From the NCBI GenBank assembly GCA_902594745.1, contig CACJNF010000002.1, positions 1-64,000 of the forward strand: a stretch of 64,000 bases of DNA, written 5' to 3'. The stretch comes from an uncultured Bacteroidota bacterium. Its GTDB lineage: Bacteria > Bacteroidota > Bacteroidia > Flavobacteriales > Flavobacteriaceae. Below, in pieces: positions 97-6,390 of the stretch. Made by a program: the position numbers and the translations under genes. The notes beneath the pieces are model-generated. The model did no database searches. It saw only the letters and a list, made by a program, of their open reading frames with translations, and had not been told where the DNA came from. Each line of letters begins with the position of its first letter. Position 1 is the first letter of the stretch.

Positions 97-1074
97 ATGC
101 AGCAAGAACCACTTTTACAAGAAAATAAAGATAGATTTGTAATCTTTCCAATTGAGCATCATGACATATGGGAATGGTATAAAAAATGTGAAGCCAGTTT
201 TTGGACGGCTGAAGAGATTGATCTTCATCAAGATCTAAATGATTGGAGTTCAAAATTAAATGACGACGAGAGGTTTTTTATCAAACACATCCTCGCTTTT
301 TTTGCTGCCTCAGATGGAATTGTTAATGAGAACTTAGCAGAAAATTTTGTGAATGAAGTTCAGTATTCTGAGGCAAAATTTTTCTATGGCTTTCAGATTA
401 TGATGGAGAATATTCATTCGGAAACATATTCTTTACTTATTGATACATATGTAAAAGATGATAAGGAAAAAGATACTCTATTTAAAGCTATAGAAAATTT
501 CCCTGCAATTAAGAAGAAAGCTGACTGGGCTCTAAAATGGATTGAGTCAGATTCCTTTGCTGAAAGACTTATTGCTTTCGCTGGTGTTGAAGGAATATTT
601 TTCTCAGGCTCATTCTGTTCAATTTTTTGGTTGAAAAAGAGAGGGCTTATGCCAGGATTAACTTTTTCTAACGAGTTAATTTCAAGAGATGAAGGTGTGC
701 ATTGTGATTTTGCAGTTCATCTTCATAATAATCATATTATTAATAAAGTACCAAAGGAAAGAATTAAAGAAATTTTAATAGATGCTCTTAATATAGAAAG
801 AGAATTTATAACAGAATCACTTCCAGTAAGTTTAATCGGAATGAATGCAAAACTAATGACGCAATATTTAGAATTTGTTACCGATAGACTTCTAGATCAA
901 TTTGGATGTGAAAAAGAATTTAATGTTTCTAATCCATTCGACTTTATGGATATGATTAACCTTCAAGGTAAAACTAATTTCTTTGAGAAAAGAGTTTCAG
1001 AATATCAAAAAGCAGGTGTTCTAAATAATGATAAAAAAGAAGAGTCAAACTTTGATCTTGACGATGACTTCTAA
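97..1074 (+). CDS. nrdB: Ribonucleoside-diphosphate reductase, class Ia beta subunit
   Basis: Small (R2) subunit that houses the diiron-tyrosyl radical cofactor and passes the radical to NrdA for reduction of ribonucleotides to deoxyribonucleotides. At 325 residues it is normal length. The expected ligands are visible: D73, E104, H107 (in ENIHSE), E165 (VEG), E199 and H202 (RDEGVH), and the radical tyrosine fits Y111, four residues after H107 as in eukaryotic-type R2. The motifs resemble eukaryotic R2 more than the E. coli protein, which is common in Bacteroidota. It lies 46 bases upstream of nrdA and is surely cotranscribed with it. No Shine-Dalgarno sequence is visible. Confidence 0.97.
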
Positions 1075-1120
1075 AATAATCGTTTAATTAATTTAATTTT
1101 AAAAATGGTATAATAAGGAT

Positions 1121-3607
1121 ATGTCTATGTATGTAATTAAAAGGGACGGAAGAAAAGAGCCCATAATGTTTGATAAAATAACCGCAAGGATAAAGAAGCT
1201 TTGTTATGGTTTTAATGAATTAGTTGATCCTGTTAGAGTTGCAATGAGAGTAATTGAAGGCCTTTATGATGGTGTTACAACTTCAGAATTAGATAACCTA
1301 GCAGCAGAAATTGCTGCTACTATGACAACTACTCATCCAGATTATGCATCTCTTGCAGCAAGAATTTCTGTCTCAAACTTACATAAAAATACCACGAAGT
1401 CCTTCTCTGATACTATGAAGGATCTTCACGCATACGTAAATCCAATAACTGGTAAAAAGGCCCCGCTATTATCAGATGAAGTCTATAAAGTGATTAAGAA
1501 AAATGCAGAGTTACTTGACTCAAAAATCATTTACAATAGAGATTTCGGATATGATTACTTTGGATTTAAAACTCTTGAAAGATCATACCTTTTAAAAATT
1601 AATGGAAATATAGTTGAGAGACCACAACATATGTTGATGAGAGTCTCGGTAGGTATTCATCTTGATGATATTGATGCTGTAATTGATACCTACGAGTTAA
1701 TGTCAAAAAAATATTTTACTCATGCAACTCCAACTTTATTTAATGCAGGTACGCCCAAACCACAAATGTCCTCATGTTTCTTACTAACCATGCAAGATGA
1801 TAGTATTGATGGAATCTATGATACACTAAAACAAACAGCTAAAATTTCACAATCTGCTGGAGGAATTGGTCTTTCAATTCATAATATAAGATCTACAGGA
1901 TCATACATATCTGGAACAAATGGTACATCAAATGGTATTGTTCCAATGCTTAGAGTTTTTAATGATACTGCAAGATATGTAGATCAAGGGGGTGGTAAAA
2001 GAAAAGGTTCTTTTGCAATTTATATTGAACCATGGCACTCTGATATTTATGATTTTCTAGATCTAAAGAAAAATCATGGTAAAGAGGAAATGAGAGCAAG
2101 GGATTTATTTTATGCTATGTGGATTCCTGATCTATTCATGAAAAGAGTTGAAAATAATGAAGAGTGGACTTTAATGTGTCCAAACGAGTGTCCTGGATTA
2201 TATGATTGTCACGGAGACGAGTTTGATAAGCTTTATTTAAAATATGAAAAGCAATCAAAGGGAAGAAAGTCAATCAAGGCAAGAGAGCTTTGGGAAAAGA
2301 TTCTTGAATCTCAAATTGAGACAGGTACTCCATATATGCTATATAAAGATTCTGCAAATAGAAAATCAAATCAAAAGAATCTTGGGACTATTAGATCATC
2401 GAATTTATGTACAGAAATACTTGAGTACACCTCAAAAGATGAAATAGCGGTTTGTAATCTTGCATCAATTGCTCTTCCAATGTTTGTTGAAGATGGAAAG
2501 TTTAATCACCAAAAATTATATGATGTAACAGTTAGAGTTACCAAAAATTTAAATAAAGTTATTGATAGAAATTACTATCCTGTTAAAGAAGCTGAAAACT
2601 CAAACTTTAGACACAGGCCAGTTGGTCTTGGTGTGCAAGGTTTAGCTGATGCATTTATTCTATTAAGGATGCCATTTACTTCTGATGAAGCAAAAGAGCT
2701 TAATCAAGAAATTTTTGAAACTATCTATTATGCTGCACTTAATGCATCAGTTGAGGAAGCTAAAAAAGATGGAGTTTATGAATCATATAAAGGCTCTCCA
2801 ATTTCAAAAGGTGAATTCCAACATAATATGTGGGGAGTTGAAGATGATGATTTAAGTGGGAGATGGGATTGGAAAAAATTAAGAAAAGATGTTTTAAAGC
2901 ATGGTGTGAGAAACTCTCTTTTAGTGGCACCAATGCCAACTGCAAGTACATCTCAAATTCTTGGAAATAATGAATGTTTTGAACCTTATACTTCAAACAT
3001 TTATACTAGAAGAGTTTTATCTGGTGAGTTTATTATTGTTAATAAACACTTACTAAATGACCTAGTTGAATTAGGACTTTGGAGTGAAGATATGAAACAA
3101 GATCTAATGGCTGCAAACGGATCAATTCAAGATATTGAAGGTATTCCAGATGATTTAAAGGAGCTATATAAAACTGTGTGGGAGATGAGTATGAAGGATA
3201 TAATCGATATGGCTAGACATAGAGGGTTTTTCATTGACCAATCACAATCACTTAATTTATTTATGGAAGGTGCTACTATGTCAAAACTTACATCTATGCA
3301 CTTCTATGCATGGAAATCTGGTCTTAAAACAGGTATGTACTATTTAAGGACTAAATCTGCTGTTGATGCAATCAAGTTTACACTTAAGAAAAAAGAATCT
3401 GTTCCTGAAAAAACAGAAGAGATTAAACTTGAAGCAGAGACTGAAGAGGTAGGTGAAGTTCAAATTACTAGAACAGAAAAAGCAGCAAAAACTAAATCCA
3501 AGGAAAAGCCAGTTGCTGTTGAACCGCTAACTCCTGAAGAGCTAAAACAAATTATCTCTCAATCTAAAGAGAATGAGGATGATGACTGTCTTATGTGTGG
3601 TTCGTAA
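1121..3607 (+). CDS. nrdA: Ribonucleoside-diphosphate reductase, class Ia alpha subunit
   Basis: Large (R1) catalytic subunit, 828 residues. The N-terminal roughly 90 residues form an ATP cone (allosteric activity site; [10 protein letters not shown] near the start). Catalytic cysteines can be placed by context: SSCFLL (redox pair, first), SNLCTEI (thiyl radical) and [11 protein letters not shown] (redox pair, second). The C-terminal tail ends CLMCGS, the mobile CxxC that re-reduces the active site with thioredoxin or glutaredoxin. A charged Lys/Glu-rich linker (about residues 760-815) joins barrel and tail and is longer than in E. coli. It follows nrdB in one operon. No intein or intron interrupts it. 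Confidence 0.97.
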
Positions 3608-3655
3608 GACCTTCTAGATATATAAAATTAGTATTTAATAGTTTTAAATTTTATA

Positions 3656-3698
3656 ACTCAAACTTTACATATTCTTAATATAAAAAGAAGTTTTGAGT
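3656..3698 (+). terminator. Weak inverted repeat after nrdA
   Basis: ACTCAAACTT (3656-3665) and AAGTTTTGAGT (3688-3698) are complementary with one bulged T, around a 22-base loop. There is no following T run. It could be a weak terminator or chance in AT-rich DNA. Confidence 0.2.
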
Positions 3699-3722
3699 AT
3701 GATATTTGTTTAAAATTTAAAA

Positions 3723-4148
3723 ATGAGAAATCTTATACTATTACTTATTGCATTATTTTTTGCCACTTCAACTTATTCTCAGAAAATTGGTTATGAATTT
3801 CGTACAAACGGAAAAGCATATATATCTACCTCTTATGCTGGTTTTGAAGTAAGACATAGGACTGATAAAGAGGAAAACAGATTTACATATAGATATAAAA
3901 TGTTGGACTCTGAAAAGTTTACATTTAGTCTACCTCTACATTATAAAGTAGAAAAAGAAAAAGCAACTCTTGAGCCAAGATTGAAGTATCATTTAAATAA
4001 GTTTAGTTTATGGGCTCAAAAAGAATTTAATCTTGAAGAAAACATGAATGCAGCTTTTGGTATAGATATACCTGTAAATGATTTCACTTACAGGATTGGA
4101 TGGGACTCTTCAGATACAGTGAGATTTAGATTAGTCAAAAAATTTTAA
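3723..4148 (+). CDS. Small exported protein, probable beta-rich outer-membrane/periplasmic
   Basis: Unrecognised family. Residues 1-19 are a clear signal peptide ending TYSQ, so the mature protein (about 120 residues) is periplasmic or outer-membrane. The rest alternates polar and hydrophobic residues with many Tyr, Phe, Arg and Lys (for example FTYRYKML, FSLPLHYKV, LEPRLKYHL) and ends in a Phe, which fits a run of beta strands of a small barrel or half-barrel such as the DUF2490-like proteins; that comparison is inference only. It sits 115 bases after nrdA and 5 bases before the phosphate transporter, so it is probably cotranscribed with the latter. Confidence 0.7.
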   Translation: MRNLILLLIALFFATSTYSQKIGYEFRTNGKAYISTSYAGFEVRHRTDKEENRFTYRYKMLDSEKFTFSLPLHYKVEKEKATLEPRLKYHLNKFSLWAQKEFNLEENMNAAFGIDIPVNDFTYRIGWDSSDTVRFRLVKKF

Positions 4149-4153
4149 TAAAA

Positions 4154-5758
4154 ATGGAAAGTATTTATTTATTCATATTAATCGGTTTAATTACACTTGC
4201 ATTTGCTGATCTAATTGTAGGTGTAAGTAACGATGCTGTAAATTTCCTAAACTCGGCAATTGGTTCAAAAGTTTTATCATTTAAAACACTTATGATTGTT
4301 GCAAGTATTGGAGTTTTTGTTGGATGTGTGTTCTCTAGTGGTATGATGGAAGTTGCTAGGAAAGGTATCTTTAATCCTGGTGAGTTTATGTTCAATGAGA
4401 TAATGATAATTTTTATGGCAGTAATGATTACGGATATATTCATTTTGGACTTATTTAACTCTTGGGGTCTTCCTACATCAACTACTGTGTCAATTGTTTT
4501 TGAATTGTTAGGAGCATCTGTGGCAATGGCATTAATTAAAATTGGGATTGATAGTGGATCTTTTTCAGACCTTGCAATCTATATTAACACCTCAAAAGCT
4601 ACTCAGATTATTATGGGAATTCTCCTCTCTGTATTTATAGCTTTTTCTGTAGGTGCAATTGTCCAATGGGTTTCAAGAGTTCTTTTATCATATAATTATA
4701 AAAATAAATCAACATGGGTAGGTTCAGTTTTTGGAGGTATAGCTCTTACGGCTATTTCGTATTTTATATTAATTAAAGGTATAAAAGGAACCTCATTTGC
4801 AGGTGAAAGCTTTGATTTAATTGGTGGAATGACAATTAATAATTTCTTAGAATCAAATGTTATATCAATAATAATATATAGTTCAATAATTTGGACATTA
4901 ATTTCATTTTTGTTAGTAAAACTATTTAAAACAGATATATATAAAGTTATAATTGCCGTTGGTACTTTTGCACTTGCTCTAGCTTTTGCAGGAAATGACT
5001 TGGTTAATTTTATTGGTGTGCCAATAGCTGCTTGGCAGTCTTACGAGGCATGGGTTGCTTCAGGGGTTGCGGCTAGTGAATTTAGTATGCAAGTTTTAGC
5101 TTCCAAAGTTCCAACGCCAGATTTCCTTCTTATAATTGCTGGATTGGTTATGGTTTTAACTTTATGGTTTTCAAAGAAAGCTAAGACAGTTGTTAAAACA
5201 GAACTTGACTTATCTAATCAAGGTGAGGTTAAGGAAAGATTTAATGCGAGTATTTTATCAAAACTTGTTGTTAGTATTGGTTCAAGTATTTCAAGCTTAG
5301 TTTCAAAAATTCTTCCCAAATCTACTAGGCAAGCAATTGATAAAAGATTTGAAGTTCCAGCGATTTTTACAAATAAAATTTCATCAGAGGATAAACCTTC
5401 ATTTGATGTAATAAGGGCATCAGTAAATCTAATGGTTGCAGGTATATTAATCTCTTTTGCAACCTCATATAAACTTCCACTTTCTACAACTTATGTTACT
5501 TTCATGGTAGCAATGGGGACGTCTCTATCTGATCGAGCATGGGGAAGTGATAGTGCTGTTTATAGAGTTTCAGGTGTGCTTAATGTAATAGGGGGCTGGT
5601 TTCTTACAGCTCTATCTGCATTCACTATTTGTGGGATAGTAGTTTTTATCATTTACAAGCTTCAATTAATAGGTATAGGAATTACGTTAATTATACTAGG
5701 ATATTTACTAGTTAAAAATTATAAAAGCTTTAAGAAAAAAGCTAAGGTAAAGCTATAG
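4154..5758 (+). CDS. pitA: Inorganic phosphate transporter, PiT family
   Basis: Low-affinity phosphate (metal-phosphate) symporter of the inner membrane, 534 residues with about ten to twelve membrane segments. Both halves carry the PiT repeat signature: GVSNDAVNFLNSAIGSK near residue 23 and AGNDLVNFIGVP near residue 278, and the C-terminal half has KLPLSTTYVT. A hydrophilic loop at about 345-405 separates the halves. No DUF47/PhoU-like partner gene is adjacent, although such pairs are common. The 330 bases just downstream carry an 11-bp repeat array like a Pho box, which hints at phosphate-linked control in this neighbourhood. Confidence 0.92.
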   Translation: MESIYLFILIGLITLAFADLIVGVSNDAVNFLNSAIGSKVLSFKTLMIVASIGVFVGCVFSSGMMEVARKGIFNPGEFMFNEIMIIFMAVMITDIFILDLFNSWGLPTSTTVSIVFELLGASVAMALIKIGIDSGSFSDLAIYINTSKATQIIMGILLSVFIAFSVGAIVQWVSRVLLSYNYKNKSTWVGSVFGGIALTAISYFILIKGIKGTSFAGESFDLIGGMTINNFLESNVISIIIYSSIIWTLISFLLVKLFKTDIYKVIIAVGTFALALAFAGNDLVNFIGVPIAAWQSYEAWVASGVAASEFSMQVLASKVPTPDFLLIIAGLVMVLTLWFSKKAKTVVKTELDLSNQGEVKERFNASILSKLVVSIGSSISSLVSKILPKSTRQAIDKRFEVPAIFTNKISSEDKPSFDVIRASVNLMVAGILISFATSYKLPLSTTYVTFMVAMGTSLSDRAWGSDSAVYRVSGVLNVIGGWFLTALSAFTICGIVVFIIYKLQLIGIGITLIILGYLLVKNYKSFKKKAKVKL

Positions 5759-5761
5759 ATA

Positions 5762-5789
5762 GTAGGGAGTATTTATAATATTACTCTAC
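5762..5789 (+). terminator. Possible terminator hairpin after pitA
   Basis: GTA-gg-GAGTA (5762-5771) can pair with TACTC-TAC (5782-5789) as an 8-bp stem with a two-base bulge and a 10-base loop. No T run follows on the plus strand. Weak. Confidence 0.25.
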
Positions 5790-5811
5790 CCCATATTTAA
5801 TATCTGATTGA

Positions 5812-5892
5812 TTAAATAGCTACTTGTGCTATGCATGCAAAAACAAATAACACACATGCAAGTACCAATCTTATCTTAATTATTAGGCTCAT
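5812..5892 (-). CDS. Possible 26-residue hydrophobic peptide
   Basis: An ATG at 5892 (minus strand) opens a 26-codon frame ending at a TAA at 5812. The product has a short basic start (IIKIR) followed by a hydrophobic helix with two cysteines (LVLACVLFVFACIAQ), so it would be a membrane microprotein. It begins 14 bases from the phased TTAACA array at 5906-5977, on the strand where the array reads TGTTA. An overlapping plus-strand frame of similar length (5831-5914) exists, so coding is unproven. No family recognised. Confidence 0.3.
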   Translation of the reverse strand: MSLIIKIRLVLACVLFVFACIAQVAI

Positions 5893-5905
5893 AATTTTTG
5901 CTTTT

Positions 5906-5977
5906 ATAACATAAAGTTAACTCTAAATTAACAAAAAACAAACTTTTACATAACATTAAGTTAACATTAAACCATAA
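5906..5977. promoter_or_regulatory. Phased 11-bp repeat array, Pho-box-like operator
   Basis: Hexamers starting at 5906 (ATAACA), 5917 (TTAACT), 5928 (TTAACA), 5939 (CAAACT, degenerate), 5950 (ATAACA) and 5961 (TTAACA) lie exactly 11 bases apart, with CCATAA at 5972 as a weak seventh. The A/T-rich 5-base spacers (taaag, ctaaa, ttaag, ttaaa) are also alike. Direct repeats with an 11-bp period are how OmpR/PhoB-family regulators bind; TTAACA is the PhoP unit in Bacillus, and the opposite strand reads TGTTA, close to the E. coli PhoB TGTCA. Together with pitA this suggests a phosphate regulator; that is inference. Confidence 0.55.
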
Positions 5978-6090
5978 AATATTGATTATCAGTTATATAT
6001 AAACTAATATTTTTACCTCCTTAAAAATGATAAATGTAATTCTAGGATTTAAATGGAAAAAATTTATAATTTCGCCTAAAATATACTTAA

Positions 6091-6390
6091 ATGTCTAAGT
6101 TTGGTGAATTATTGGATGAAAAAAAACCACTATTACTTGTGTTTTTTAGCGAGTATGATGAGCTTTCTTCCTCATTGCATCCAGTTCTTAAAGATGTAGC
6201 TGCTGCACTAGGTGACAAAGGCAAAGTAATAAAGATTAATACAGAAAAAAATATTAAGCTCTCAGAAGCCCTCAGAGTCAAAGTTATTCCTACTTTAATG
6301 ATCTATAAGTATGGTGAAATGGTTTGGAGACAAAGTGGAGATCAAGATGCAAATACACTTATAAGCTTAATGAAAGATCAGCTTAATTAG
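6091..6390 (+). CDS. Thioredoxin-fold protein lacking the CxxC
   Basis: A 99-residue protein with the size and pattern of a thioredoxin: beta strand LLLVFFSEYD (14-23), helix, KVIKINTEK (45-53), the cis-proline loop VIPTLMIY (P67) and a final amphipathic helix. The active-site WCxxC is replaced by SEYDELSS (20-27), and there is no cysteine in the whole protein. It therefore cannot be an oxidoreductase; known cysteine-less thioredoxin folds act as scaffolds or chaperones, but no role can be read here. No signal peptide, so cytoplasmic. It stands alone on the plus strand, 114 bases beyond the 11-bp array, and converges with the gene ending at 6392. Confidence 0.75.
   Translation: MSKFGELLDEKKPLLLVFFSEYDELSSSLHPVLKDVAAALGDKGKVIKINTEKNIKLSEALRVKVIPTLMIYKYGEMVWRQSGDQDANTLISLMKDQLN

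Follow-up and report, generated by a model that had tools for sequence, protein, structure and literature searches.

Direct repeats at 11-bp steps are a general feature of the sites bound by OmpR-family regulators. The PhoP box of Bacillus subtilis is made of TTAACA repeats, and the Pho box of Escherichia coli has a defined orientation, being on the same strand as its target gene. E. coli PhoB recognizes 11-nt direct repeats of CTGTCAT in tandem, head-to-tail (PMC4415409). In Flavobacterium johnsoniae, the PHO regulon includes PhoBR, OprP, PitA, TonB-dependent transporters, and lipoproteins, and oprP, within the PhoBR operon, is not induced by low phosphate (PMC8115612); the main text of that paper does not use the words Pho box, motif, promoter, binding site, MORN, or YwqK. 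Pho boxes have also been predicted in the plcP clusters of marine bacteria (PMC4796936), and the −7 box of Bacteroidota promoters is placed at −12 to −5 (PMC9723704). Searches of a collection of open-access papers turned up neither the motif reported here nor its link to MORN genes.

The DNA analyzed here is a stretch of 64,000 nucleotides from an uncultured Bacteroidota bacterium (hereafter, the window). Between pitA and a thioredoxin-like gene, six TTAACA-like hexamers start at exact multiples of 11 bases (5906, ATAACA; 5917, TTAACT; 5928, TTAACA; 5939, CAAACT; 5950, ATAACA; 5961, TTAACA), confirming the positions given in a preliminary description of the locus. Taken together, they agree with TTAACA at 30 of 36 positions. 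The runner-up six-unit score in the 64-kb window, with overlap of the array excluded, is 23, and 200 dinucleotide shuffles of the window gave a maximum of 26 (mean maximum, 23.8), none reaching 30. A consensus-free measure of periodicity in the intergenic region (5759–6090) gave 31 at period 11, against a best of 29 in 200 shuffles of that region at periods 7–15. With at least two tandem half-sites at 11-bp spacing, the array has the form of a direct-repeat operator. Judging from aligned relatives, it most likely works on the minus strand, as four half-sites joined to a −33/−7 core promoter. The features concerned are as follows.

4154–5758, plus strand: a phosphate transporter of 534 aa, convergent with the short open reading frame (ORF); we take it to be pitA from the preliminary description and knowledge of the family
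5812–5892, minus strand: a 26-aa ORF, MSLIIKIRLVLACVLFVFACIAQVAI, occupying the place of the MORN_2 gene of relatives
5907, minus strand: predicted transcription start, placed from a −7 box at −12 to −5 (PMC9723704)
5912–5919, minus strand: −7 element TAACTTTA, at offset 47, overlapping the hexamer at 5917 and one mismatch from the consensus TAnnTTTG
5928–5933, minus strand: half-site 4, TGTTAA, at offset 33, outside the search anchor, within the −33/−7 spacer
5939–5944, minus strand: half-site 3, AGTTTG, at offset 22, holding the −33 TTTG (5939–5942)
5950–5955, minus strand: half-site 2, TGTTAT, about −48 to −43, at offset 11, also in the anchor
5961–5966, minus strand: half-site 1, TGTTAA, about −59 to −54, offset 0 of the conserved box
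6091–6390, plus strand: thioredoxin-like gene

This layout emerged from upstream regions of other genera, which align to a shared promoter consisting of TGTTAATTTAATGTTAnGTAAATGTTGC, a TGTTA-like half-site, and then TATATTTG. Of 30 MORN loci, three were excluded, having no ORF start by the rule applied; among the remaining 27, the two-unit anchor was found in 24 and the strict three-unit pattern in 20. The half-site 1 position reads TGTTAA or TGTAAA in 24/24 anchored MORN_2 promoters, which were selected by that very anchor. Half-site 3 is AGTTTG across the 14 promoters of the window's genus, except for TGTTGC in L041, and GTTG or GTTT is common there in other genera, where the strict search pattern itself required it. 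In the promoters of other genera, at least 16 of 24 have TGTAAA, CGTAAA, TGTTAA, or TGTTAT as half-site 4. A half-site within the −33/−7 spacer (offset 33; 5928–5933 in the window) recurs in other genera; for an activator site, this placement is unusual.

When contigs of GTDB genomes were scanned for the extended motif, TGTTAANTWAATGTTAYGTRAAWGTT, at least 117 sites came to light. Among the matches listed, TAnnTTTG is exact at offset 47 in 70/117 and within one mismatch in 94/117; exact copies at offset 46 or 48 add 18 more, for 88/117 at offsets 46–48. Because the −7 box stands at nearly one fixed distance, four of the units are read as regulator half-sites. The −7 box covers part of unit 2, and the predicted start falls at unit 1, such that the alignment with relatives ruled out six equal sites. 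The preliminary description had proposed OmpR/PhoB-type direct repeats in a long six-site array; the repeat type held, whereas the six sites gave way to four half-sites plus a core promoter. With its predicted position near 5907, the start lies 15 bases upstream of the ATG (5892). A scan of 5650–6120 for consensus terminators gave none, and the fold of the predicted transcript is unremarkable (z −0.28). A known Rfam RNA family at the array was considered and rejected, an RNA family search that covered the window together with seven loci having returned two tRNAs and nothing else.

At MORN_2 genes, the array lies on the same strand as its target, as in E. coli. It shares with the PhoP box of B. 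subtilis the TTAACA-like hexamers at 11-bp steps, and differs from it in promoter class and in having TTAACA on the strand that serves as template for the target. With the E. coli Pho box, it shares the 11-nt direct repeats (TGTCA there and TGTTA here; PMC4415409); unlike that box, the array, as a putative PhoB site, has TGTTA, three to four half-sites, and a Bacteroidota −33/−7 promoter. The putative PhoB sites of plcP clusters likewise belong to marine heterotrophs, including flavobacteria (PMC4796936).

The element has a consistent partner. Among the matches listed, the start of a MORN_2 gene follows within 260 bases, in the sense direction, at 109 of the 117 sites. Of the eight others, four lie so near a contig end that fewer than 160 bases remain, and the other four are those of sister genomes (G013, G014, G015, and G023), identical to loci L022, L023, L024, and L026, where a short ORF is present. 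Since the scan pattern was built from MORN promoters, these counts speak to the specificity of the extended element, not to the absence of the regulator elsewhere. The records of 80 listed sites name Flavobacteriaceae genera (as we presume the named carrier genera to be) or uncultured Bacteroidota. Again among the matches listed, only 58/117 have pitA or an oprP-like porin in divergent orientation, and 8 have pitA in convergent orientation; 32 sites for which 3 kb or more of sequence was available have neither pitA nor a porin nearby, and 19 had less sequence.

In most of the Flavobacteriaceae sites seen, the target encodes a secreted MORN_2-repeat protein of ~119 aa, and, of 199 genomes sampled from the bacterial family, 174 have a homologue. 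The protein of L044 matches Pfam MORN_2 (PF07661), and that of L032 gave no Pfam match at E ≤ 0.001. The predicted structure is a beta sheet (pLDDT 81.9), with SET7/9 as its best PDB match (E 1.1e-3) and weaker matches to MORN1 and radial-spoke proteins; the matches are weak, so a MORN-like sheet is only hinted at. In its MORN_2 match and predicted sheet, the usual target resembles secreted MORN_2/YwqK-like proteins, unlike the window, which has only a signal-peptide-like frame of 26 residues.

Within the window's genus, the box occurs in 14 of 25 genomes, one copy each, and the reversed pattern in none; full-length MORN genes accompany it in eight carriers and a short ORF in six. The array is 3′ of pitA in five close sisters of the window (G010, G013, G014, G015, and G023) and in eight genus members that are more distant. 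In eight same-genus genomes, the minus strand encodes a secreted MORN-like-repeat protein of 99–118 aa, convergent with pitA, whose start lies 74 bases from the first half-site in seven and 73 in the eighth.

Evidence for a link to phosphate comes from a matrix trained on the MORN promoters and applied, in two- and three-unit tests, upstream of other genes. In Flavobacteriales, repeats precede pstS in 10/15 cases at p ≤ 0.05 and 7/15 at p ≤ 0.01 (15 matches over the cut-off), compared with 1/15 and 0/15 for pstS-like paralogues (15 under the cut-off, without L198 and L199). Thioredoxin controls (the 12 other-genus members of 30 loci) passed in 4/12 at p ≤ 0.05, which makes that threshold lax, and in 0/12 at 0.01. 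Three-unit repeats stand before five of six other-genus porin-pitA (oprP-pitA) operons (p 0.002–0.03), the set comprising loci where the gene preceding pitA is complete; the sixth, L039, has a two-unit repeat only (p 0.022). Regulator genes (10 of 30 loci) carry repeats in 5/10 and 2/10 at the two thresholds, and Na/Pi cotransporter genes (15, without L229, L230, and second matches) in 3/15 at both. Of the known phosphate genes in the lineage, pstS and porin-pitA thus tend to have repeats in front of them, with Na/Pi cotransporters reaching only 3/15. Four strong PhoX matches, from one large genus, have no start-proximal site; their three-unit p values are 0.036, 0.094, 0.38, and 0.004; the matches behind the two lowest lie 127–164 bases away. 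In most pstS and porin promoters, the orientation is the reverse of that at MORN genes, where the box reads TGTTA in sense. The box-linked genes recall the PHO regulon of F. johnsoniae, with its PhoBR, OprP, PitA, TonB-dependent transporters, and lipoproteins; that oprP is not induced by low phosphate there speaks against a phosphate link (PMC8115612).

The window's own genome gave a different picture. At up to two mismatches, forward and reversed patterns are about equal (10+10 vs 15+9), so the genome-wide enrichment anticipated earlier was not borne out there, and no pstS was found in this 84%-complete assembly. By eye, its arrays at C5:46990, C5:21370, and C6:59011 have no link to phosphate genes; the first precedes a moxR-like gene and the second lies between tetR-like and polyprenyl-synthetase-like genes. 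Across 100 genomes of the family, three TTWAC units gave 69 matches vs 21 for the reversed pattern (hand-summed), an excess that is not by itself a measure of a Pho regulon because it includes 14 copies of another site and, in 6/30 loci, sites at an AraC-like gene. The pattern that the preliminary description named as support thus appears across the family at pstS and porin-pitA, and weakly or not at all at other phosphate genes, and its suggestion of a Bacteroidota Pho box before a small transcript gains from the repeats at pstS and oprP-pitA. From this gene context, the array is probably a Pho box.

Two OmpR-type regulators were found in the window's genome. The first is closest to PhoB models and adjoins a histidine kinase gene; both fall below the curated NCBIfam cut-offs (209.7 of 296.2 and 204.8 of 270 for the regulator; 223.6 of 334.2 for the kinase against PhoR). 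It is 56–60% identical to pst-neighbouring regulators of G043, G046, and G050, which are divergent from a porin-pstS cluster, divergent from pstS, and near pstS, respectively, and only 38% identical to a regulator that G037 carries on its pst contig (L111). With the G043 protein it shares VVGDRTIDVHIRKLREK, which we take to be the recognition-helix region. The second regulator is closest to RprY, and its helix region differs from those of the pst-neighbouring regulators. In the reading proposed here, the PhoB-like protein would regulate the array, acting as an activator.

The surroundings of the array differ between the window and its relatives. Upstream of pitA, the window contains two further features.

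3653–3680, plus strand: a second box, weaker than the first, ahead of the pitA operon, with ATAAC, TTTAC, and TTAAT spaced at 11 bp
3723–4148, plus strand: a secreted protein of 141 aa in front of pitA, likely in the same operon

The 141-aa protein gave no Pfam match at E ≤ 0.001 and no NCBIfam match at E ≤ 1e-10. With the MORN-trained matrix, the second box has a three-unit p of 0.006 and a two-unit p of 0.054, and a similar stretch is present in sister loci L022–L027 and L045; in three related loci, the box upstream of the pitA operon gave three-unit p values of 0.02–0.05, the two-unit tests being not significant. In 13/13 related array-bearing loci, the far side of the array is occupied by the 3′ end of nrdA, convergent with it. 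In the window, nrdA lies upstream of the pitA operon, and the thioredoxin-like gene adjoins the array there only, an arrangement that would fit an inversion of the block of 141-aa gene, pitA, and array between nrdA and the thioredoxin-like gene (97–6390). The nrdA end beside the array in every one of these relatives removes thioredoxin, earlier considered a possible target. In the array-less same-genus loci L027, L028, and L045, pitA extends C-terminally where others have MORN and the array. The window's PitA has 534 aa, and array-bearing relatives have a PitA of similar length; its frames are about 730–790 aa in most other-genus matches, L027, and L028, and that of L045 (G018) is interrupted by stop codons.

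Taken together, we consider it rather probable that the array is a regulated sigma-A promoter of a minus-strand gene, with a PhoB-like regulator at the TGTTA half-sites and a phosphate link shared with pitA. In this scheme, the PhoB-like response regulator would bind the TGTTA half-sites head-to-tail, at 11-bp steps, from about −59 to −32, and recruit polymerase to the −33 TTTG/−7 TAnnTTTG promoter. The minus-strand gene, together with pitA, would thereby be coupled to phosphate supply. At most Flavobacteriaceae sites seen, that gene encodes the ~119-aa MORN_2-repeat protein; in the window's clade, only a hydrophobic ORF of 23–26 aa takes its place.

Other readings fare less well. Periodicity arising by chance in AT-rich intergenic DNA could be entertained at an A+T content of 69%, yet no shuffle reached the array's score and the element is conserved across many genera, which already refutes it; we regard this reading as negligible. 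Control of the plus strand, of thioredoxin or an antisense transcript, would accord with TTAACA being read on that strand, the commoner orientation at pstS. Nevertheless, thioredoxin is replaced by the nrdA 3′ end in the 13 related loci and, by eye, the plus strand has no good −7 box at the right place, making such control very improbable. That the same minus-strand promoter is read by another member of the OmpR family, such as the RprY-like protein, is less easily set aside: the genome does encode that second regulator, the OmpR family as a whole uses 11-bp direct repeats, and the start-proximal box is absent at phoX. Against this, the box carriers and their neighbours include pitA, oprP, and pstS genes, and it is the PhoB-like helix region, not the RprY-like one, that matches the pst-neighbouring regulators; a regulator other than PhoB is thus quite unlikely. 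The most likely interpretation of the sequence comparisons is therefore a Pho-type, PhoB-controlled minus-strand promoter, serving MORN_2 in most relatives and a short ORF here. The Pho-type operator before a small transcript that was first suggested is hence retained in outline, without the six-site array, the role for thioredoxin, or enrichment in the window's own genome.

What the promoter drives in the window's clade is more ambiguous. No MORN_2 match was found in the window's 84%-complete genome, and directly downstream of the box is the 26-aa ORF instead. Its start is 74 bases from the box start, as for MORN_2 in the genus; sister ORFs, MNIIVKLRLIVACMLLVLACLFA or close variants, have in-frame ATGs at 68 and 77 bases, and across the clade the frames are hydrophobic and 23–26 aa long. 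The ORF stops after a signal-peptide-like stretch, and the MORN body is absent from the window and the five sisters. By position, with no detectable sequence homology, the ORF would be the truncated start of the MORN_2 gene, and a peptide is predicted to be made from it. Between the window and the five sisters, divergence amounts to 8–9% over the 65-base array and 22–23% over the initial 60 bases of the ORF, compared with 56–58% at 4-fold sites of pitA. Divergence is below the 4-fold sites in 5/5 comparisons (p about 1e-13 for the array and 1e-6 for the ORF), the sisters being mutually close and the comparisons thus not independent. Since array divergence is so far below that of 4-fold sites, the promoter is clearly constrained. 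The ORF is also more constrained than neutral sites, but coding selection is only suggested: changes by codon position number 5–6, 1, and 6–7, with pN of 0.17–0.19 and pS of 0.31–0.39 over only 20 comparable codons.

One tentative, rather doubtful possibility is that, in this clade of uncultured flavobacteria with streamlined genomes, truncation of MORN_2 left its signal peptide as a selected membrane microprotein of 23–26 aa, which is expressed from the PhoB promoter, convergently with pitA, and perhaps acts on PitA or, antisense, on its mRNA. It is also possible, if unlikely, that the MORN_2 gene has simply decayed, leaving a promoter and short ORF that are now functionless. The few codons, with pN and pS values that give no strong coding signal, and a predicted transcript without special fold are compatible with such decay; the divergence of array and ORF, far below that of pitA 4-fold sites in all five non-independent comparisons, and the single change at second codon positions (5–7 at the others) speak against it.

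Whatever the fate of the short ORF, the promoter is shared across a large flavobacterial family and looks to be under phosphate control. These results offer an explicit Pho-box and promoter layout for Flavobacteriaceae that is open to testing, assign to a likely phosphate regulon a secreted MORN_2 protein that is widespread and uncharacterised, and provide an example of a promoter and short frame outliving the body of a gene.

Several recurrent sites were encountered alongside this element. A near-identical intergenic site, TTTACAATTAATTAACGTTAAATTTACA, with ~30 conserved bases, occurs in 14/100 genomes (L164, L166, L177, L178, L184, and L188, at about 1501–1528, and eight further genomes) and is unexplained by phosphate genes; by eye, the end of an rsmG-like gene is nearby in four of six loci inspected. 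Near 1501 in L159, L160, L162, L168, L172, and L176, three TTAACA-type 11-bp repeats lie ~60–85 bp from an AraC-like gene (by eye), with a divergent gene for a secreted protein of ~200 aa, constituting a different recurrent 11-bp array. Finally, also by eye, L181 and L186 have a TTAAC box near 1501 ahead of a TonB-transporter-like gene, and L174 and L182 have one ahead of a lipoprotein-like gene. All four boxes lie within a few kb of MORN_2 or pitA, and the genes resemble the low-phosphate-induced pair of F. johnsoniae (PMC8115612).
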